From a virus, in the IMG/VR virus record IMGVR_UViG_3300044993_000096, positions 1-31,923 of that record: DNA of 31,923 nucleotides. One strand, given 5' to 3'. How positions within the stretch are numbered: position 1 is the stretch's first letter; the number at the start of each line of letters is the position of its first letter. Under the pieces are notes generated by a model that was given only the letters and a program-made list of their open reading frames with translations, ran no database searches and was not told the origin of the DNA. Both the position numbers and the translations under genes were made by a program. This document shows positions 3,135 to 29,736 of this stretch, piece after piece.

Positions 3135-4936
3135 TTTATTTTGCCCTGGCAAAAGTATTCTCTCGCAATAGAGGTGGGTGTCCCAGATACGTTTAGAACT
3201 GTACCTGCATAAGTGGTGCTGGTGGTGGTTTTTTCTCCTACAAATCCCCCGCCTCCAGCATTAGCAGAGTGCCAACAATTCGGAATCCCATCCCAATAGT
3301 TACTTGTAAACGTACAAACTGGAGTCGTGGCATTGGTACAGCTTGCAAAGCAGCCACCAATCTGATCTGAAATTACCCCCGTTGATGAAATCTTAGCCGA
3401 GCATAGTGCTACTCTTCCACCATTAGGGCTTGTTACAACATCTTGAAAAGTGCCTGTAATAATGTTGCGGAATTTGTAGTCTGGTGGAGACTTGGTGCAC
3501 ACTATTTCTACTGCTCGATTAACCTCGGCACTTGTGCCTTTTGCTGTAAAGGATAGCGAAGAAGAGGATAGTGTTTTAAAATGCGGCGAAATGCCTAGTT
3601 CTGTTGAGTTTTCAAGCATGGATATTTCGCAAACAGGGGCAGATGTAAATATCCCAGAGTTAAACGTGCAGGTCTTAGTTGTGCCTGATGTACAATCCCC
3701 GCTAATCCAATCTAAATTTTCTGCACTCACAACTCCCGAAGCACTCACCTTCGCACTAAATACATTCTCACAATCCGTCGCCCTTATGCATTGTTGAGAG
3801 TAAAGAGAGATGCGAGGGTTGAGGTTTTTACCACGGAATTTTAGGCGGAAGTGGTAGGCTACGTTTGGGTTGTTTATTTCAAAAAAACCTGAGTTAATAC
3901 AACCCCCATTCGTTAATCCGTTTAAGGTGCAAACCTGAAATCTATTAGATGAAACCGCTATTGCAAATCCGGTGTAAAAAGATGGATGTCCATTGTTCAC
4001 TGACACTGATTTTCCAATTGTTGCCGCCGCCCTAGATGTGCCAGAAGAGTCGTTTGATGACCCTGTCACTGTCGATATTGTCCCTAATGGCTGACTGTCA
4101 GCATACTCAATCCCTGCTGGGAGGTGGAATAAGTAACCTCCAGACCCGTTTGCCGCTCCTGCGTTTGAGTCTGCTCTATATCTGTATTCACATTCATAGT
4201 CTTCGCCGACTACTCTGCATCTAACACTGTCCTCTTGTTTGGTTGTAGCTTTTGTCGGGTTTGTGCTAGTTGCTGTTATTGTCATGGGACCGTAATCAAC
4301 CCAGGGCCCTATTGCCGCAGCTTCGTAGATTGATCCATCTGGAATGATTCCAACATAAGCATCATCAACAATGATTGTTCCAGTAGATGAAGTCACATCA
4401 ATATCAATTCCGGAAGATGTACCGCCTAAGAGGAAAGGAATTTCATATTCCTTCCAGACTCCAGTCTTATCTAAAGTTAAGCAGATTGAAGTTTGTTTAG
4501 ACCCGTTTACTCTAGGACACAAGGTTGCGTTGGCTGTATTCTTTGCCCATACTTTTAAAACGCCTTGGACACCACTTAGCTCCGATGCGTTTATTGTCGT
4601 ATCTTGCTGGAGGTTGCAGGTTTGGGATGAAACAACGCACTTCCATGCTTTGCCGCCAGATATTTTCTGAGACGTTTCGGCCGATCGTGTTCCTGTTCCA
4701 GAAGCTGTCCAACCTGAGTCATAGGTTTGATGTTCAAAATTAGGATTACGAAGCAGGTTTTTGTTTCCAGTTTCAATAAGTGCGTCACCGCCTAATAGTG
4801 GAGTGACTTGATTATTTGGTGTTTGTATATTGACTGGATAGTTTGGAACTGATTGATTTTGACCTTTAATACCCAAAGGGTATGCTAACGAATTTAAGGA
4901 AAGTGTCAAAGCAATGAGTGCTGCTAATTGTTTCAA
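3131..4936 (-). CDS. Cysteine-rich fibre/adhesin-like protein with N-terminal Sec-type signal peptide (TTG start)
   Basis: A TTG at 4934-4936 preceded at good spacing by GGAGGT (4942-4947) starts a 601-residue protein whose first residues, MKQLAALIALTLSLNSLA followed by YPLG, are a textbook signal peptide. An upstream ATG in frame exists (to 5014) but lies inside the previous gene and would bury the signal. Residues about 70-215 look like a carbohydrate-binding jelly roll (NLLRNPNFE, GVWKEYEIPF, IIVDDAYVG). Two related modules follow near the C-terminus (SAKVSASGVV...CTFNSGIFTSAPVCE and SAKISSTGVIS...CTFTSNYWDGIPNC). Many paired cysteines suggest disulfides. Its place after a fibre gene suggests receptor binding, but export is unusual for a virion protein. 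Confidence 0.75.
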   Translation of the reverse strand: MKQLAALIALTLSLNSLAYPLGIKGQNQSVPNYPVNIQTPNNQVTPLLGGDALIETGNKNLLRNPNFEHQTYDSGWTASGTGTRSAETSQKISGGKAWKCVVSSQTCNLQQDTTINASELSGVQGVLKVWAKNTANATLCPRVNGSKQTSICLTLDKTGVWKEYEIPFLLGGTSSGIDIDVTSSTGTIIVDDAYVGIIPDGSIYEAAAIGPWVDYGPMTITATSTNPTKATTKQEDSVRCRVVGEDYECEYRYRADSNAGAANGSGGYLFHLPAGIEYADSQPLGTISTVTGSSNDSSGTSRAAATIGKSVSVNNGHPSFYTGFAIAVSSNRFQVCTLNGLTNGGCINSGFFEINNPNVAYHFRLKFRGKNLNPRISLYSQQCIRATDCENVFSAKVSASGVVSAENLDWISGDCTSGTTKTCTFNSGIFTSAPVCEISMLENSTELGISPHFKTLSSSSLSFTAKGTSAEVNRAVEIVCTKSPPDYKFRNIITGTFQDVVTSPNGGRVALCSAKISSTGVISDQIGGCFASCTNATTPVCTFTSNYWDGIPNCWHSANAGGGGFVGEKTTTSTTYAGTVLNVSGTPTSIAREYFCQGKIK

Positions 4937-4937
4937 G

Positions 4938-6569
4938 CTATACCTCCAAAATTTCAACCGACTGCCCTGCTGTGTCTGAAATGACGTAAAAATCTCCAGG
5001 TCCATCAAACTCAACTCTATCAGGGCCTACAATCTCCATACCGTTAGAAGTTGTCACAGATGCTCCACCGACAAAAATTTTCCCAGTGTTTCCAATTGTA
5101 CCCTTGATGTACAATTTTTTTCTGGTTGTGGCAGGAGGGTTTCCGTCATACGTTGCTCTTACTGCGTTAGTCCCAACAGTCAACTTTGCACTCACTGGGA
5201 CGTTGTTAAAACCTACATTCTGGTTTACTTCTTTAAGAACCTCAAGCAACCCTTTAGTAAGGGCAACCAATCCAGCAGTGTTAAACTGGTTTGTCTCTGG
5301 TAAGTCAGAAGCATCACCAAGCGCATTTGATGAGATCACAACCTTGCCAGTGCCATCAACCAGAATCTCCTTGTGAACGCTGTTAACACTATCAAACCCA
5401 AGAGTTACAGAGGCAGATTTAAGAGCTGTTCCTGAAGCGTTATCTGTAGTTTGAGAGTTTCCAGCAACACTTGATGTGCTTATAAAGTTTGTACCATTTG
5501 ACAACCTTGCGCTCACGGGAGTCGCAGCAGCTTCGTGCCTTGTTGCAAGAACTGTTCGGAGGGTGTTAGAGTCCGAAGCACCTGAGTCGTAGCTAAGTTC
5601 GTTACCAGCGCGCTTTAAGTTTGCTGACACTCTGAGTGTTTGTGCGCTATCTGCACCAGCATCAAAATCAGCAGCTCCAGTGGCATTACCAATTTGTGAA
5701 GCTGTTCTGATCGCTCCTGTAGCCGCACCATAGTCGTTGGACACTTTGTTGTTGATAGCTGAGAGTGTTGTCTCTGTCGCAATTCCAGATGCCGATGCAT
5801 TAACCACCAACTCGCCTGATGTGTTAACTTTTAATTGCTGGAAGTCGCCGTTGCCATCAACGCCACCAATCGCTAAACCTGCGCTGCCTGCACTTAATCC
5901 ATCCGTGTTAACAGCATCATCAATCAATTCAACAGATGTCTTGATGGCATTTAAATGACCTGTTTGAGTTTGCTGCTCGGTCAATGTTGCTGCGTTTGTT
6001 GGAAGCGGAGATGACAAAACACCAATCTGCAATTCACCAGCAGCATTTGTCTTAAGTCTTACGTTATTAGTACCATCTGATCCGAGAACCTGAATGCCTC
6101 GGTTAACATGAGCTGAACCAGCGAGGTTTGTTGAATCTGAAAGCAGAGAAGTGTCACCGTCGATTGTTGTTAAAAGAGCGTTAGCATCGTCATCTTTGAC
6201 CTTGAGTGCGTAAGTTGTTGCATCACTATTAAGAGCAACCTTAGCTTTGTTGTTTGTAACAGGATCGCCAATCGCCATTGAGTCATTCAATGCGCTTGTG
6301 CTTATATTTAAGTCGCCAGCCGTGATATTTACGTCTCCAGTTAACCCTACAAGCTTAACTGGAAGCGGGTTGCTGTTGGCCGGGTTTGAGTCTTCTTTAA
6401 CCGGGACTCGGACTCCGTTTTTAATAAAGAATTGCGCAGATGGAAGAGGTCTATTGTTTGCAGCATTAGAAGTGTCTTCTGTTACAGTTGTGTTTACGCC
6501 GTCAAGGCTATACTTAACAGGAGGAATTGAAACAGAAACAGGTGTTGGTGGGTAAAGATAGAGCGCCAT
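4938..6569 (-). CDS. Tail fibre-like protein, 543 aa
   Basis: The protein is low in cysteine and rich in Asn, Thr, Ser and Ala, with repeated beta-type units such as LKTNAAGELQIGV (about residue 170) and LKVNTSGELVVNA (about 250), a pattern seen in trimeric tail fibre shafts. The N-terminus (MALYLYPPTPVSVSIPPVKY) probably attaches to the tail, and the C-terminal region (IFVGGASVTTSNGMEIVGPD) looks like a compact beta domain. The GGGGG-type ribosome binding site lies just before the ATG. It ends two bases before the TTG start of the exported fibre-like gene, whose ribosome binding site lies inside its last codons, so the two are coupled. Confidence 0.7.
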   Translation of the reverse strand: MALYLYPPTPVSVSIPPVKYSLDGVNTTVTEDTSNAANNRPLPSAQFFIKNGVRVPVKEDSNPANSNPLPVKLVGLTGDVNITAGDLNISTSALNDSMAIGDPVTNNKAKVALNSDATTYALKVKDDDANALLTTIDGDTSLLSDSTNLAGSAHVNRGIQVLGSDGTNNVRLKTNAAGELQIGVLSSPLPTNAATLTEQQTQTGHLNAIKTSVELIDDAVNTDGLSAGSAGLAIGGVDGNGDFQQLKVNTSGELVVNASASGIATETTLSAINNKVSNDYGAATGAIRTASQIGNATGAADFDAGADSAQTLRVSANLKRAGNELSYDSGASDSNTLRTVLATRHEAAATPVSARLSNGTNFISTSSVAGNSQTTDNASGTALKSASVTLGFDSVNSVHKEILVDGTGKVVISSNALGDASDLPETNQFNTAGLVALTKGLLEVLKEVNQNVGFNNVPVSAKLTVGTNAVRATYDGNPPATTRKKLYIKGTIGNTGKIFVGGASVTTSNGMEIVGPDRVEFDGPGDFYVISDTAGQSVEILEV

Positions 6570-24124: not shown

Positions 24125-24283
24125 CTATTTTTTCTTCTCACCATACGCTTTGATCGCTATGCGGATGAGTTCCGAAACATTTCCACGTGCAAGCTGATTA
24201 GACTTCTCCACGAGTTCGCGCAGCTCGTCTTCAGTGAGGCGAAAGATGACTTTTAGCTTTCTGAGTTTTTTAATTGTCTGCAT
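24125..24283 (-). CDS. Ribbon-helix-helix DNA-binding protein, 52 aa
   Basis: The ATG at 24283 opens a 52-residue frame ending TAG at 24125-24127. The protein has the ribbon-helix-helix pattern: a beta strand (LKVIFRLTEDE), then helix A (ELRELVEKSNQLARG) and helix B (NVSELIRIAIKAYG). Such small proteins bind DNA as dimers and regulate transcription. It sits immediately upstream of the methyltransferase gene, so it may control the late operon. Confidence 0.65.
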   Translation of the reverse strand: MQTIKKLRKLKVIFRLTEDELRELVEKSNQLARGNVSELIRIAIKAYGEKKK

Positions 24284-24337
24284 AACTTAGGTATATCGTC
24301 CCAAGTCATGCAAGTCAATTTAGAAATACCACCGTCA

Positions 24338-24529
24338 TCAACGCCGAAGCCGTTTCAGCTCGGCTTCCGCTCTAGCAGCGTCAATCGCGTCAAGTGCGCC
24401 CTTCACGCCCACCTCGTCAATCAACATCATAACTTTATCAACAATGTCTTGAAGCGTGCATTTAACTTCCTCAATTTTCTCTTTGTGCTCAGGTGAGTAC
24501 CTGATACTTCTGGTTATAGACTTACTCAT
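24338..24529 (-). CDS. Small helical protein, 63 aa
   Basis: A basic N-terminus (SKSITRSIRYSPEHKEKIEEV) with a strand-helix look precedes a helical charged rest (AIDAARAEAELKRLRR). The first part is reminiscent of a ribbon-helix-helix start, but the second helix is too long for certainty. Three bases separate it from the upstream stop. No function is assigned. Confidence 0.5.
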   Translation of the reverse strand: MSKSITRSIRYSPEHKEKIEEVKCTLQDIVDKVMMLIDEVGVKGALDAIDAARAEAELKRLRR

Positions 24530-24532
24530 GAC

Positions 24533-24799
24533 TTACTCCAAGCCGTCTCGGTTATACCTTAATTTCTCAATCTTACCTAAGTGCAGTCGCACCTCATCAA
24601 AACTCTCATCAATGCTCTCTAGGTACTCTTCAACATATAGCATATCGCGGATAATGTGCAGCGCGTGAATGCTATCCTCCGCGCCAAGCGCTTCAACAAG
24701 CTGCGCCCACAGCACCTCACCGCTTGTCTTGGGTAGATTATCTTTCTGATATGCGCGTTCATTGATGAGTATTTGAGTTATCTTGTTGCTTCTTTTCAT
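24533..24799 (-). CDS. Hypothetical helical protein, 88 aa
   Basis: I start it at the ATG at 24799 because GGGGG lies just upstream and the longer frame would run through the neighbouring gene. The product is mixed charged and helical (LWAQLVEALGAEDSIHALHIIRDMLYVEEYLES). It begins one base after the stop of the 155-aa gene. Not recognised. Confidence 0.55.
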   Translation of the reverse strand: MKRSNKITQILINERAYQKDNLPKTSGEVLWAQLVEALGAEDSIHALHIIRDMLYVEEYLESIDESFDEVRLHLGKIEKLRYNRDGLE

Positions 24800-24800
24800 A

Positions 24801-25268
24801 TTACCCCCTACTAGACGCAACTTGCGCCAGTTCGGCATGAGTCCAACAATCGACATCACTCCAACAAGAGACTTCTCTTCCGAAGTCTCTTTCGATCGCA
24901 GCGAGCAAGTCATCCACAATGGCTTGAAGCTCGTCAGTCAGCTCTTTCGATGCTGGGGAGTCGTCGAGAGTCGCAGTCACGATAGTCTTGTAGTCTTCAG
25001 TCGATGTCATAGTGACTTCAAGCGTGCCCTGGCACTTTTCTTTTATGGCTGCTAGGCGACGAGAAAGTGCTGGCAGCTCTTTTAGGTAGCCGCTTTTTAA
25101 GATGGTGCCAGTCGGCTCTAGGGTACCTTCCATGGTCACGTCTTCAGTGAAAAGTGCCTCAAAGCCACCAAGCTCTTCGATGGAAAAACCCAGGTGCTTT
25201 AAGTCGTCTCTTAAGTATCCTGACCAGATAGCTATCACTTCTTTATACTTGTCTTCTTGAAAAATCAT
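24801..25268 (-). CDS. Hypothetical acidic protein, 155 aa; first gene of the leftward block
   Basis: The ATG at 25268 follows an AAGGAG site with good spacing; an in-frame start at 25298 is possible but lacks this. The protein is acidic, with beta strands in the middle (GTLEVTMTSTEDYKTIVTATLDD) and a helical C-terminal part containing two cysteines. I do not recognise it. As first gene of the leftward transcription unit, its promoter should lie in 25269-25422. Confidence 0.55.
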   Translation of the reverse strand: MIFQEDKYKEVIAIWSGYLRDDLKHLGFSIEELGGFEALFTEDVTMEGTLEPTGTILKSGYLKELPALSRRLAAIKEKCQGTLEVTMTSTEDYKTIVTATLDDSPASKELTDELQAIVDDLLAAIERDFGREVSCWSDVDCWTHAELAQVASSRG

Positions 25269-25422
25269 ATATGCTCCTTGTTGACCACATACTACCATGA
25301 AAAAGGCTGCGATGCGTAAAGCGTGTAAAAAATACAGTAGGATTTAAAGCATGGAAAATTTTCATTGTTTAGGTTTTAAACAGATTTAAGTGGTAGACTA
25401 AGATTTAACAAGGAGCTAACCA
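25269..25422. promoter_or_regulatory. Divergent intergenic region, probable promoters
   Basis: This AT-rich stretch separates the leftward block from a plus-strand small gene, so promoters for both directions should be here. No pair of hexamers is convincing: on the minus strand a TAGTAT with upstream TGG is a possible extended -10, and on the plus strand TAGACT near 25395 is another. No clear operator repeat is visible. Confidence 0.35.
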
Positions 25423-25590
25423 ATGGATATCATTATTATTTTAGGCTTAATTGGGTTAATTTTCGGATTCGGTTTTGTTGTTGGACTGATTGAATTCTGT
25501 TTCTACGCCTTTTTCATTCTTATTGCTATCAGCGTACTCTTTAAAGTCGCAAGCTTTTTCTTCGAGCTTTTCGACGAGATAAAAAAGTAA
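25423..25590 (+). CDS. Small membrane protein, 55 aa
   Basis: The ATG at 25423 follows AAGGAG and the frame closes with TAA at 25588-25590. Almost the entire product is hydrophobic, with two likely membrane helices (IIIILGLIGLIFGFGFVVGL and FCFYAFFILIAISVLFKVA) and a short acidic-basic C-terminus (DEIKK). It could be an early membrane protein such as an exclusion or holin-type factor; I cannot tell. It lies alone upstream of the structured RNA region. Confidence 0.6.
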   Translation: MDIIIILGLIGLIFGFGFVVGLIEFCFYAFFILIAISVLFKVASFFFELFDEIKK

Positions 25591-26272
25591 GTTGCCAGAT
25601 CGGGTTTTTTCTTAGAAAAAAGAAAGGCCTGAAGTTCTCAAAAGGTTACCACACTTCAGGCCCAAGACTTTGGTGGTCTTAGGATACCAAAAAGATCACC
25701 AAAGTCAAGGAGTTTTCCAGTAAGGTTTCTATAGAAAAAACCTGGAGCGCTTCGGGCGGTGTAACCGAACCAAGCAGAGAGTTTAAAACTTAAAAGATTC
25801 TTTAAAGTGCTTTCTTCACTGATGAAAGTTTCAAAAGATTTTTTGGGCGTTTTCACTCTATAAAGCCGCCTCTTAAGAAGCAAGCTTGAAGGGCCATAGA
25901 GGATCGGGTGAAGGCAATTTTCTGTGAGGGTTAATAGCTGCATCAGTTGAAGTCTGAGAAAGAGTTTCGGTTACTTGCTTCTCTTCTCTGCCCGACTGCC
26001 ATACTCGAAAGAGTCTTAGGGCGCTCTCAGGCTTCAAAGTGGTTCAGCGTTAGTGCGATTTTGGGTGTTATGGCAGAAAAAGCCTATGGCTCTTCTTTGC
26101 CTGAAAATCAAGAACTGTAATTTTTTCAATCTATGTTGTTTTTTTGAATTTCTTTTTTGTAGTGTTGGCTCGTATCTGCAAAATACACTGACATTTTCCG
26201 CTGCTTTCCTTGTTGCAGCGTTAAAGCCGCCGACTAGCTTCCTTGCAGATATGCTAGTCGGTTGTGCTTTTT
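25591..26272 (+). ncRNA. Candidate large structured noncoding RNA (about 500-650 nt)
   Basis: There is no convincing gene here. The plus strand holds a stack of complementary segments: 25626-25635 with 25653-25662 (10 bp); 25666-25680 with 25692-25706 (15 bp, one G-U); 25724-25728 with 25738-25742; 25745-25750 with 26021-26026; 25752-25757 with 25990-25995; 25761-25769 with 25966-25974; and 25856-25861 with 25896-25901. A hairpin ACTC-GAAA-GAGT sits at 26003-26014. Several segments nest, closing an arch of about 280 nt. The wobble pairs and the GNRA loop favour the plus strand as RNA. Possible 3' ends are the U-run at 26121-26126 or the terminator-like hairpin at 26230-26274. The layout resembles the phage-borne ornate large RNAs (GOLLD, ROOL) in scale, but no motif identity is claimed. 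Confidence 0.55.
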
Positions 26273-26282
26273 AGGAGGTTCT
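26161..26282 (+). promoter_or_regulatory. Structured leader with alternative pairing, upstream of membrane gene
   Basis: Two hairpins (26199-26204 with 26215-26220, and 26230-26238 with 26253-26261) lie just before an AGGAGG ribosome site. The 14-base loop of the second is complementary to 26171-26181 over 11 positions (one G-U) through 26243-26253, so it can form a pseudoknot or compete with the hairpins. Both hairpin loops carry TTCCTTG. This may be an attenuator or the 3' domain of the RNA upstream. Confidence 0.45.
26230..26274 (+). terminator. Possible intrinsic terminator
   Basis: A perfect 9-bp stem (CCGACTAGC and GCTAGTCGG) with a 14-base loop is followed after TTGTGC by five Ts. The U-run is displaced from the stem by six bases, so termination may be weak. 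The next gene's ribosome site begins directly after it, which suggests controlled read-through rather than a simple end. Confidence 0.4.
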
Positions 26283-26465
26283 ATGCTTGAGTATCTCGCT
26301 AATAACTACATCAGAGTCGCAGTCATCCTGAATTATTTAGTATCTATTGGCATTGTGATTGTATCTATAGATGAGATTAACAGCTGGTTGTGTTGGCTTT
26401 CTGTCTCAATGTCTGTGTTTTCCATCATTTTCGGTAAGTACTTCGGAATAAAAGAATCAATTTAG
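26283..26465 (+). CDS. Small two-span membrane protein, 60 aa
   Basis: The ATG at 26283 follows AGGAGG, a strong ribosome site. The product has two hydrophobic helices (AVILNYLVSIGIVIVSI and WLCWLSVSMSVFSIIFG) linked by a short acidic turn. It is the first gene after the structured region. Not recognised; an early host-membrane function is possible. Confidence 0.6.
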   Translation: MLEYLANNYIRVAVILNYLVSIGIVIVSIDEINSWLCWLSVSMSVFSIIFGKYFGIKESI

Positions 26466-26478
26466 CTTTGGAGTTCTT

Positions 26479-26724
26479 ATGTTTGACCATAAAACTATGA
26501 AAGAAACTTTCGAGAACTTTGATCTTATAGGTGAACTAGAAAAGTTTTTGGATGGGATCGAGATTGCACGCTACGGCAAAATTCTTGGCGAAGATGGCCC
26601 TTTTGGTGACCAATTCAGTCAGTATCTTTACGAGCTAATCCAGATGCGACTAGATCACTTTGATGAATACATGAAGTTAGTTGGTCGAATTAAAAAAACT
26701 TACGGAGGTCAAGATGAAAACTGA
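26479..26724 (+). CDS. Hypothetical protein, 81 aa
   Basis: This is an acidic helical product (FENFDLIGELEKFLDGIE, MRLDHFDEYMKLVGRIKK) without membrane segments. GGAG precedes the ATG. Its end overlaps the Gp157-like gene start by 11 bases, so it belongs to the recombination operon. Function unknown. Confidence 0.6.
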   Translation: MFDHKTMKETFENFDLIGELEKFLDGIEIARYGKILGEDGPFGDQFSQYLYELIQMRLDHFDEYMKLVGRIKKTYGGQDEN

Positions 26725-27238
26725 GGATAGGTTGACGCTGTACGACATCACTGATGACATCGTTAAAGTCTTTGATGCTGTCACAGAGAGAGAGGGCGAG
26801 GTGACACCAGAGCTCGATGCTGCGCTTCAAAAAGCGGAAGCTCTCCTGCTTGAGAAAGCTCATCGGTGTGCTGGGTATCGTGAGTCGCTCGAGGATGCGA
26901 TCACTCGCATAGAATCCAGGATAGAAGAGCTAGAAGCGCTTAAAATGCGCTTTAAAAGCAAGCTGGAGTCTTTTGATGATTATGTAACCACTTGTCTTAG
27001 AAAGCTCCCAGAGCAGGAAATTAAGGGCGATCTAGTTACAATCAAACTTCGCAAGCCGGCTAAGCAGGTGGAGATTTACGACGAGGCGCTTATACCGCTT
27101 GAGTTTGTAAAGATTCCTGAACCAAAAGCGGTCATTCAAAAAGCTGAGATTGCCAAAGCGCTCAAAGATGGCGTAGATGTGCCGGGCGCTAGGCTAGTTG
27201 ATGGTAAACAATCCGTAACTTACAAGGTGGGTGTATGA
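26714..27238 (+). CDS. Siphovirus Gp157-like protein, 174 aa
   Basis: The order of features fits the Gp157 family: N-terminal helix (LTLYDITDDIVKVFDAV), long central coiled coil (about residues 45-95, YRESLEDAITRIESRIEELEALKMR) and a basic beta region (TIKLRKPAKQVEIYDEALIP, VPGARLVD). Gp157 proteins lie next to single-strand annealing proteins in many phages and are thought to aid recombination or resistance to host defence; the function is not settled. The ATG at 26714 with GGAGG is chosen over a longer in-frame start. The stop overlaps the RecT gene start by ATGA. Confidence 0.82.
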   Translation: MKTEDRLTLYDITDDIVKVFDAVTEREGEVTPELDAALQKAEALLLEKAHRCAGYRESLEDAITRIESRIEELEALKMRFKSKLESFDDYVTTCLRKLPEQEIKGDLVTIKLRKPAKQVEIYDEALIPLEFVKIPEPKAVIQKAEIAKALKDGVDVPGARLVDGKQSVTYKVGV

Positions 27239-28149
27239 GTGATTTAACGAAGTACGAAGAGATTTTACTGAAAGGCGATGAAGTCAAAAGAAGCTTTGCA
27301 GCAAACTATGTTGCAAGCCTTTTCAAAACTCACTCCTGCGCGCAAGAGGACATTATTCAATTCTTGCATCAGGCGCAGCTTTCTGGAGCCAACCCGGTCT
27401 TAAAAGAAATTTACTTGATCGAAAGAAACGTAAAAATCAAGGGGGAGTATGGTCAGGACAAGTGGATTAAGCGCGGAACTGTAGTTTACTCGTACAACTT
27501 TCTTCTTCGCGTTGCAGCTCAAACTGGAGAGTTTGATGGTTACACAGAAAACTTTGAGGTCAAACCTTTCTTTGATCCCGTTACTGGTAAACTCGGAAAA
27601 GAGGAGTTGGTTTGCACTGTTGTAGTCAATAGAAAAAACCACGGATCTTACCCATACACTTCGCGCTGGTCTGAGTACGCGCAGGACACAACTCAGTGGA
27701 AAAGTAAGCCATACATAATGCTTGGAAAAACAGCGCTTGCTGGTGCCTTGAGAAGAGCTTTTCCAGAAGCGATGGGTGGCGTGTTCCTTGAGGAAGAGAT
27801 CAGAGATGAAGATTTTAAGCAAGATGCTATTGAAGCAGATGCGGAAGTCAAAGAAAGAAAAGCCGAGTTATTAGCTGAGAAAGTTGAGCAACAAGACGAA
27901 AGAGATGCAGTCATTGAATTAATCAAAGAGCGCATGGGCAAAATCACCAACGGCAAAACTGCGACTGAAAAAGGTTTAGCACTCAAAGAAATCTGCGGCG
28001 TGAACCGCTTTCAGGACTTGTCGCAAAAAACACTGGCAGAACTTAAAGCGATCTCAGAAAAAGCTCTAGGAATACTTGAAGAAAAAGCTGTGAGGGCTGC
28101 AAAGAAGGTTAAAACTGTTAAAGATGTAACATTCAAGGTGGAGCAATGA
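27235..28149 (+). CDS. recT: RecT/Bet-family single-strand DNA annealing protein, 304 aa
   Basis: The core matches the RecT superfamily: FLHQAQLSGANPVLKEIYLIER, then VYSYNFLLRVAAQTGEFDGY, a basic and aromatic middle (NRKNHGSYPYTSRW) and YIMLGKTALAGALRRAFPEAM. RecT binds single-stranded DNA and anneals complementary strands in phage recombination. The C-terminal third is charged and lysine-rich. No exonuclease partner of the RecE or lambda-Exo type lies beside it; the DEDD exonuclease at the far end of the genome or a host nuclease may serve. Confidence 0.9.
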   Translation: MSDLTKYEEILLKGDEVKRSFAANYVASLFKTHSCAQEDIIQFLHQAQLSGANPVLKEIYLIERNVKIKGEYGQDKWIKRGTVVYSYNFLLRVAAQTGEFDGYTENFEVKPFFDPVTGKLGKEELVCTVVVNRKNHGSYPYTSRWSEYAQDTTQWKSKPYIMLGKTALAGALRRAFPEAMGGVFLEEEIRDEDFKQDAIEADAEVKERKAELLAEKVEQQDERDAVIELIKERMGKITNGKTATEKGLALKEICGVNRFQDLSQKTLAELKAISEKALGILEEKAVRAAKKVKTVKDVTFKVEQ

Positions 28150-28457: not shown

Positions 28458-28484
28458 CTATTAATGAGATTGATCTGAGTAAAC

Positions 28485-28498
28485 TGGAGTATACTCCA
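28485..28498. promoter_or_regulatory. 14-bp palindrome, candidate operator over a -10 element
   Basis: The sequence TGGAGTATACTCCA is a perfect inverted repeat in the gap after the regulator gene. Its centre contains TATACT (28490-28495), a good -10 hexamer about 20 bases before the ATG of the next gene. A matching -35 at the usual distance is weak. A dimeric repressor bound here could block that promoter; whether the XRE protein does so is inference. Confidence 0.5.
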
Positions 28499-28513
28499 AA
28501 ACACTAAGGAGAT

Positions 28514-28759
28514 ATGATGGTATTTAAGATTAGACACTACTACTATGCTATTGACAAAGAAAAGTACATAGAAGAGGGGGAAAGCGTTTTCCTGCCAAGT
28601 GATTCTATTAAAGCTATTGTGATTCGCGATCATGGTGACTATGCGCAGATTGTGACTGACTGCAACCTAAAACTTCCAGCATTTATCGTGAAAAAAGAAT
28701 GTGCTTTAGAGATTGTTGAGAAACTACAAGCGCAGCAAAGTAAAGCGGTGGGGGGTTAG
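28514..28759 (+). CDS. Hypothetical protein, 81 aa
   Basis: AAGGAGAT precedes the ATG. The product is beta-rich at the start (MMVFKIRHYYYAIDKEKYIE, IKAIVIRDHGDYAQIVTDC) and helical at the C-terminus (ECALEIVEKLQAQQSK). No motif is known to me. It begins directly downstream of the palindrome and may be the first gene of a regulated unit. Confidence 0.55.
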   Translation: MMVFKIRHYYYAIDKEKYIEEGESVFLPSDSIKAIVIRDHGDYAQIVTDCNLKLPAFIVKKECALEIVEKLQAQQSKAVGG

Positions 28760-28760
28760 T

Positions 28761-29177
28761 ATGAAAATCACAGAAGAGGACGGAATAAAAACTTACCAAA
28801 TTGAAGAATCCGACTGTGTTGATAGGGGTTGGTGTTTTGAAATTGAAGGGGCTGCTTATGATGGGAACCTAAAGGTATCTCTATCCAAAGCTCTTGCGGT
28901 AAGAGACAATCAGATAGTGAGAGGTTTTGAGGTTGTGAGAGGCTGTCAGCTCATTGAAGGAAGTCAAACAGTGTATGGCTATCAAATTATCGAGGGCAAA
29001 GGCAAACAAATTATCGAAGGCAATCAGACCGTCAAGGCATGCCAGATTATTGAAGACGACCAGATTGTTGGTGGGGATCAGATTGTGATAGGCAATCAGT
29101 TTATTGGAGGCGATCAAAAAGTAAAGGGCATTCAGGTGGTTGGAGGTTATCAAAAAGTTGAAGGCAAAAAACTCTAG
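28761..29177 (+). CDS. Hexapeptide-repeat, probable beta-solenoid protein, 138 aa
   Basis: After a 45-residue leader the sequence becomes a run of six-residue units of the form x-Q-x-[IV]-x-G: CQLIEG, SQTVYG, YQIIEG, NQTVKA, CQIIED, DQIVGG, DQIVIG, NQFIGG, DQKVKG, IQVVGG, YQKVEG, about fourteen in all. Such regular spacing of aliphatic and glycine residues suggests a solenoid of beta strands. The glutamine at the second position of nearly every unit would form a ladder. GGGGG precedes the ATG at 28761. I know of no function; candidates are DNA mimicry, antirestriction or surface binding. Confidence 0.7.
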   Translation: MKITEEDGIKTYQIEESDCVDRGWCFEIEGAAYDGNLKVSLSKALAVRDNQIVRGFEVVRGCQLIEGSQTVYGYQIIEGKGKQIIEGNQTVKACQIIEDDQIVGGDQIVIGNQFIGGDQKVKGIQVVGGYQKVEGKKL

Positions 29178-29204
29178 GTATTAATTAGAAAGGGAGGTTT
29201 TAAA

Positions 29205-29432
29205 ATGAGCTACTACGATATGAGCATTCACCATAACCCATCTGGCGCAGCTTGGGCTAAATTTTTTATGGAGATGAAAAACAAAGTCAATTTTGAGATT
29301 GATGAAGACTTAATGTTGGGTTGGTTTTGTAACGCTATGGAAGCAAGGTCAAATTACGAACAAAAAGAAATTGATTCCCTAAAAACCCAGCTTGCGGAAG
29401 CTAAGAAAACAATTGAGAAGATGAGAAAATGA
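29205..29432 (+). CDS. Hypothetical protein, 75 aa
   Basis: A GGGAGG site lies before the ATG. The N-terminus (MSYYDMSIHHNPSGAAWAKFF) is typical of a small phage early protein; the C-terminal half is a coiled coil (EQKEIDSLKTQLAEAKKTIEKMRK). Its stop overlaps the next small gene by ATGA. Function unknown. Confidence 0.6.
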   Translation: MSYYDMSIHHNPSGAAWAKFFMEMKNKVNFEIDEDLMLGWFCNAMEARSNYEQKEIDSLKTQLAEAKKTIEKMRK

Positions 29433-29581
29433 AAACTATTTTAATGTTTTGCTTGTTTTTTGTAACGTCTTGCGGCGAAGAGCATAACTATGTGACGGAT
29501 ATGCGAAATAAAGCCAGAAGTGTTGTCTGCACAAAAGAAGAGCTTGCGCTCGTAGCGCTTGAGTTTGATGTGTGCAGTTGA
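29429..29581 (+). CDS. Tiny lipoprotein, 50 aa
   Basis: The ATG overlaps the previous stop (ATGA). The protein starts MKTILMFCLFFVTSC, a lipoprotein-type signal sequence with the cysteine in a V-T-S-C lipobox, followed by a short charged mature part with two further cysteines. It would be anchored in a host membrane. Possible roles are superinfection exclusion or blocking of a receptor; this is inference. Confidence 0.55.
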   Translation: MKTILMFCLFFVTSCGEEHNYVTDMRNKARSVVCTKEELALVALEFDVCS

Positions 29582-29649
29582 TCAAGCTACTTCTCAAGCT
29601 ACTGCTTGGATCAAGCAAAAGTTAATCACTGTAGGAGCATGGGGCAATT

Positions 29650-29736
29650 ATGAATAAACTAGAAAAACTTGTTTTTATTTTAGGGTCTGTGTCATGGTTT
29701 CTTATGCTGACATTGTGGGTTTTGGAGGTTTTATGA
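29650..29736 (+). CDS. Single-span membrane microprotein, 28 aa
   Basis: An ATG after a weak AGGAG-type site opens a 28-residue frame that is a single hydrophobic helix (LVFILGSVSWFLMLTLWVLEVL). Its stop overlaps the next ATG as ATGA, and the GGAGG serving the next gene lies inside it. That arrangement favours a real translated gene. Function unknown. Confidence 0.45.
   Translation: MNKLEKLVFILGSVSWFLMLTLWVLEVL

Follow-up and report, generated by a model that had tools for sequence, protein, structure and literature searches.

A gene-free, helix-rich stretch in the presumed early region of a phage genome is a candidate orphan structured RNA

Nearly 690 bases without an evident gene lie between two short rightward genes of a phage genome, and the question is whether this DNA specifies a folded RNA, controls its neighbours as a leader, acts as DNA or has no function as a unit. 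The window, i.e. the whole stretch of DNA analysed, is the complete IMG/VR record IMGVR_UViG_3300044993_000096 (31,923 bases). Most of it is filled by leftward genes, including those for the capsid, portal, terminase and a ParB-methyltransferase. Rightward genes start at ∼25.4 kb, where a 55-aa ORF is followed by the stretch under study, a 60-aa ORF, an 81-aa ORF, and Gam-like and RecT-like genes. The setting is as follows:

25300-25422, no strand: divergent intergenic region, flanked by ORF 24801-25298 (leftward) and ORF 25423-25590 (rightward)
25423-25590, plus: 55-aa hydrophobic, single-pass membrane-like ORF with an AAGGAG ribosome-binding site; the first rightward-strand gene
26283-26465, plus: 60-aa ORF, second gene of the rightward early operon (ATG at 26283)
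26714-27238, plus: Gam-like gene of the rightward early operon
27235-28149, plus: RecT-like gene of the rightward early operon

The region 25300-25422 is the presumed origin of the rightward early transcript. A promoter-like sequence, TTAACA-17-TATCAT, was found at 25405-25433 (10/12 match) in a promoter scan in which the count of such sites equalled the shuffle mean. Between 25434 and 27000 the same scan detected nothing promoter-like on the plus strand, and the genes downstream may therefore depend on read-through. The cumulative GC skew reaches its minimum at 25296, at the divergent gene boundary, a position that fits a nearby origin or merely the switch of coding strand. The 55-aa ORF had no family match in Pfam or PHROGs.

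The claim that nearly 690 bases lack a believable gene was borne out for positions 25593-26282, in which all ORFs are of 95 aa or fewer. The longest (95 aa, 25656-25943, minus strand) has no ribosome-binding site, no Pfam or PHROGs match above threshold, and a codon score of 0.047, compared to a 95% null limit of 0.066 for shadow frames and a mean of 0.192 for in-frame sequence. A 57-aa plus-strand ORF starting at TTG (25947-26120) scored 0.12 but is too short to judge, and its translation gave only weak, sub-threshold family matches. Positions 26184-26214 match positions 6139-6169 of G044 (31 nt, 87%, E 9e-5), inside a Cro/C1-type HTH gene of that phage; the idea of a decayed repressor gene was dropped, since six-frame reading of the stretch gave no other trace of an HTH gene.

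Every pairing named in the original prediction was found where it had been placed. To gauge structure without choosing a fold, perfect Watson-Crick helices of at least 9 bp were counted. Positions 25593-26272 contain eight, against a shuffle mean of 1.8 (1 of 500 shuffles reached eight); seven of them have at least three G-C pairs, against a mean of about 1.0, a number reached by none of 500 and then none of 1000 shuffles. The helix count was unequalled in 184 windows of 680 nt across the genome. Helix-rich windows elsewhere in related phages were mostly repeats or high-GC coding DNA; the present stretch contains no direct-repeat array that could account for its helices. The folding energy of plus-strand positions 25591-26272 was −219.3 kcal/mol, against −189.0 ± 5.7 for shuffles (z −5.4). 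Since its long perfect helices far exceed chance, the stretch probably makes a folded RNA, of unproven structure and function.

The structural signal is uneven, being concentrated in a three-way junction at the 5′ end (25600-25745) and in a pseudoknot and terminator-like hairpin at the 3′ end (26171-26272). The folding energy is exceptional only at these two ends (25616-25712, z −6.1; 26160-26272, z −4.2). The observation that the stretch is structured is thus sound, with the two ends stronger and the central arch weaker than originally described. Four helices had not been noted before (25603-25612/25733-25742, 25876-25884/25974-25982, 25996-26003/26069-26076 and 26173-26181/26243-26251). The elements, all on the plus strand, are:

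25600-25745, plus: 5′ three-way-junction-like domain, a closing helix around two hairpins
25626-25662, plus: hairpin 1, a 10-bp perfect stem (pair probability 0.98)
25666-25706, plus: hairpin 2, a 15-bp stem with one G-U (25666-25680/25692-25706; pair probability 0.99)
25744-26031, plus: nested arch, 25744-25752/26019-26027, 25752-25759/25988-25995 and 25761-25769/25966-25974, G-U allowed
25876-25884/25974-25982, plus: candidate pseudoknot helix of 9 bp, joining the arch interior to a 15-nt interruption on the arch 3′ strand
25996-26003/26069-26076, plus: candidate pseudoknot helix of 8 bp beside the GAAA hairpin 26003-26014, crossing the arch
26171-26261, plus: 3′ candidate pseudoknot, in which 26171-26181/26243-26253 pairs an upstream strand with the loop of hairpin 26230-26261
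26230-26272, plus: terminator-like hairpin, then TTGTGCTTTTT; AGGAGG (26273-26278) comes immediately after, ahead of the ATG at 26283

Both local hairpins of the original prediction, with stems of 10 and 15 bp, were confirmed. The helix that closes the 5′ domain around them, 25600-25612/25733-25745, has 10 Watson-Crick pairs (25603-25612/25733-25742) and 13 pairs when G-U is allowed; the 160-nt plus-strand window 25621-25780 gave a z of −6.7, the lowest of 1060 windows tested. At the 3′ end, two helices of 9 bp or longer fall within the 113 nt from 26160 to 26272, where shuffles average 0.014 (0 of 1000 reach two). One is the 9-bp stem of the terminal hairpin 26230-26261; helix 26171-26181/26243-26253 has nine Watson-Crick pairs (26173-26181/26243-26251) and up to 11 with G-U, one of which competes with that hairpin. 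Positions 26222-26272 fold with a z of −4.9, and the T-run after the hairpin ends 10 bases ahead of the next start codon. The 14-nt loop of the terminal hairpin exceeds the limits of the terminator scan. Both 3′ hairpin loops (26199-26250) contain TTCCTTG, which is complementary to CAAGGA at two upstream sites, the ribosome-binding site of the 55-aa ORF (about 25407-25413) and a position just past hairpin 2 (25706-25711); this may be chance.

A structured plus-strand RNA is supported by the excess of helices, the absence of a gene and a G-U bias. The tentative reading preferred here is that the stretch is a structured non-coding RNA of roughly 650-700 nt, forming part of the early rightward transcript. 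The layout (divergent region, short ORF, fold and terminator-like hairpin) suggests that the RNA is made with the early transcript and partly terminated. Transcription would start in the divergent region near 25300-25430 and pass through the 55-aa ORF, and the RNA would consist of a three-way junction at its 5′ end, a long-range domain in the centre and, in a fold predicted only in outline, a pseudoknot beside a weak intrinsic terminator at 26230-26272. Partial termination at 26272 would release a stand-alone RNA, while read-through would feed the Gam/RecT operon. The RNA might act in trans, as supposed for GOLLD and ROOL, or in cis only, as HK022 put does.

The two strongest structural signals, the tandem hairpins at 25626-25706 and the pseudoknotted terminator at 26171-26272, are exactly those that a cis-acting leader would use to set read-through into Gam/RecT, acting like the HK022 put RNA or a classical attenuator with no role for the RNA after transcription. 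This reading is unlikely, even though the two stem-loops occupy 81 nt a few hundred nucleotides downstream of the presumed early promoter and the next early gene has its ribosome-binding site right against the terminator-like hairpin. In HK022, the distance from PR downstream to putR is about 270 nt, and the put RNAs, which are about 70 nt long with two stem-loops, act only in cis (PMC9378689). A likeness to put is possible, on the strength of just the two adjacent hairpins early in the presumed transcript, here too upstream of a terminator-like hairpin. However, the stems of the present stretch are uninterrupted and 3 nt apart, unlike those of put, and the stretch is ten times longer. No significant sequence similarity was found to positions 25000-40000 of HK022, a segment in which the positions of putL and putR were not located. 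Nor was a second copy found for the leftward operon, unlike put, which is present at both early promoters; within the window, model R1 recovered nothing but itself and its antisense. Moreover, a leader would not account for the roughly 400 gene-free nucleotides that separate the two elements.

That intervening sequence raises a different possibility, judged slightly less likely still than a leader: two real local elements flank unconstrained or decaying sequence, the arch and the central pseudoknots being due to chance, and there is no large RNA. In agreement with this, positions 25716-26140 fold no better than shuffles (z −0.4 to −1.2), the central part alone (25741-26160) has two helices of at least 9 bp against 0.41, a count reached by 62 of 1000 shuffles and not significant, and the stretch is missing from phages that share neighbouring modules. 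The arch had been proposed from three segments pairing in order (25745-25750/26021-26026, 25752-25757/25990-25995 and 25761-25769/25966-25974) and interrupted by a GAAA-capped hairpin. The pairings are present, as is the hairpin (ACTC-GAAA-GAGT at 26003-26014), but the significance of the arch taken alone is marginal, ranging from 0 of 400 to 141 of 400 shuffles depending on the scoring scheme. The arch domain folds with a z of −2.1 with the best boundaries and −0.9 with slightly wider ones. Folding 25716-26040 gives a minimum-free-energy structure that contains the arch whole; when 25591-26140 is folded, the pair probability of the arch is 0.005 and the unconstrained fold is better by 7 kcal/mol. 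The two candidate pseudoknot helices each share a base with a neighbour, 25974 with an arch helix and 26003 with the GAAA hairpin, respectively. Against a chance centre, the 21 bp of the three ordered arch helices were reached by only 7 of 500 shuffles (with gap limits chosen after the arch was seen), and no genome window without the arch attains this total. Further, when the two local hairpins are left out (25707-26272), four perfect helices of at least 9 bp remain, against 0.7 (4 of 1000 shuffles). The central arch is plausible, not proven.

The original prediction held that the G-U pairs make sense only on the plus strand. Allowing G-U lengthens six plus-strand helices by a total of 16 bp (25600-25612/25733-25745, 25666-25680/25692-25706, 25744-25752/26019-26027, 25752-25759/25988-25995, 26171-26181/26243-26253 and 26229-26238/26253-26262), against 5 bp in three minus-strand helices. 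A bias toward the plus strand therefore stands, but it is moderate rather than exclusive, and a plus-strand RNA is moderately favoured by the G-U extensions. The minus strand also beats its shuffles (z −3.6), as perfect inverted repeats must. That the stretch works at the DNA level, serving as a replication origin or similar site through inverted repeats in the duplex or in single strands, is improbable: the GC-skew minimum adjoins the stretch and the perfect inverted repeats are alike on both strands, both of which beat shuffles, but that minimum coincides with the leftward-to-rightward gene switch, a sufficient cause alone, iterons and direct-repeat arrays are absent from the stretch, the G-U extensions favour one strand, and origins do not typically have long-range or pseudoknotted helices. 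The ColE1 RNAII pre-primer is a folded RNA of several hundred nucleotides; the present stretch resembles it in size and in lying near a possible origin, but has no Rfam similarity, and neither an origin nor an antisense RNA I is in evidence.

Returning to the preferred reading of a large structured RNA, four observations count against it: no homologue was found, the energetics of the arch are weak, the minus strand folds too, and the stretch is absent from L205 and G044. The search for homologues in related phages, which had been proposed as a check, returned none for the stretch in viral contigs, genomes, and phage and plasmid collections; most scans targeted neighbouring proteins or close copies, and distant RNA homologues may exist. 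Viral contigs were reached via RecT, the capsid (single sequence and alignment), the methyltransferase, a terminase alignment, Gam, ORF 24801 and the overlapping minus-strand ORF, and genomes via the terminase and the same minus-strand ORF. BLAST and nhmmer against all fetched loci gave nothing for the stretch, and a single-sequence covariance model of 25600-25745 found no homologue over 1.14 Mb. Recurring weak matches to 26140-26160 were rejected as T-rich low complexity. L002/G001, the nearest relative by capsid (74%), is a fragment without this genome segment. L205 is 88% identical in DNA over 24125-25244, including a relative of gene 24801-25298, and G044 is identical at 86% over 24850-25264, 93% over 3753-6401 and 82-96% over pieces of 28476-29736. 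These similarities indicate that both exchange modules with this phage; the stretch is absent from each, and neither is among the helix-rich windows listed.

The size and setting had been likened to those of GOLLD and ROOL. tRNA genes near GOLLD are frequent rather than universal, and ROOL assembles into a homo-octameric cage. GOLLD frequently exceeds 800 nt and lies close to tRNA islands, and ROOL is a large phage RNA with a complex fold and several pseudoknots (PMC12286853). The RNA proposed for the present stretch would be comparable to GOLLD as a large structured phage or prophage RNA of unknown function, and the stretch resembles ROOL in its candidate pseudoknots. It differs from both in matching no Rfam family at the gathering threshold or at E up to 10, from GOLLD in its early-operon position and lack of tRNAs, and from ROOL in having no tRNA island or known relative. 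The earlier statements that no known motif matches and that no tRNA cluster is present hold: Rfam hits at gathering and permissive thresholds were at chance level only, and the 31.9-kb record has no tRNA gene. Assignment to the GOLLD or ROOL kind is unsupported, given the lack of an Rfam match, of tRNAs and of homologues (hence of covariation) and the early-operon setting. One sequence is not enough to claim a new family. It is doubtful that the stretch represents a new class of large phage RNA with pseudoknots, one that has no relation to GOLLD, ROOL or OLE and is produced early in infection and not from a tRNA island; as an orphan structured phage RNA it is a good candidate. Phage RNAs that are both very large and structured are known in small number, and what they do is an open question. 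If real, an RNA of the early operon whose 5′ junction and 3′ pseudoknot are defined would be a small, testable case, and it would show that RNAs of this sort can go unnoticed in homology-based discovery owing to the scarcity of their relatives.

Some minor observations concern the shared modules. G044 (L209-L211) is a 46.6-kb phage record from another metagenome that shares probable tail genes, ORF 24801 and the repeat-bearing ORF 28713 with this phage; the common modules suggest a common host. ORF 28713-29177 contains an internal short repeat at 28881-29167 (QIIEGDQ/QVVGG variants) and aligns to the G044 copy in several registers. On the minus strand, a hairpin of 14 bp plus 5 bp at 24270-24318 covers the start of a 52-aa ORF (24125-24283), which matches ribbon-helix-helix weakly (E 0.019). 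An operator is one possibility for this hairpin, an RNA hairpin masking the start codon another; L205 keeps the whole stem at about 3625-3680, with one compensatory double change from A-U to G-C.
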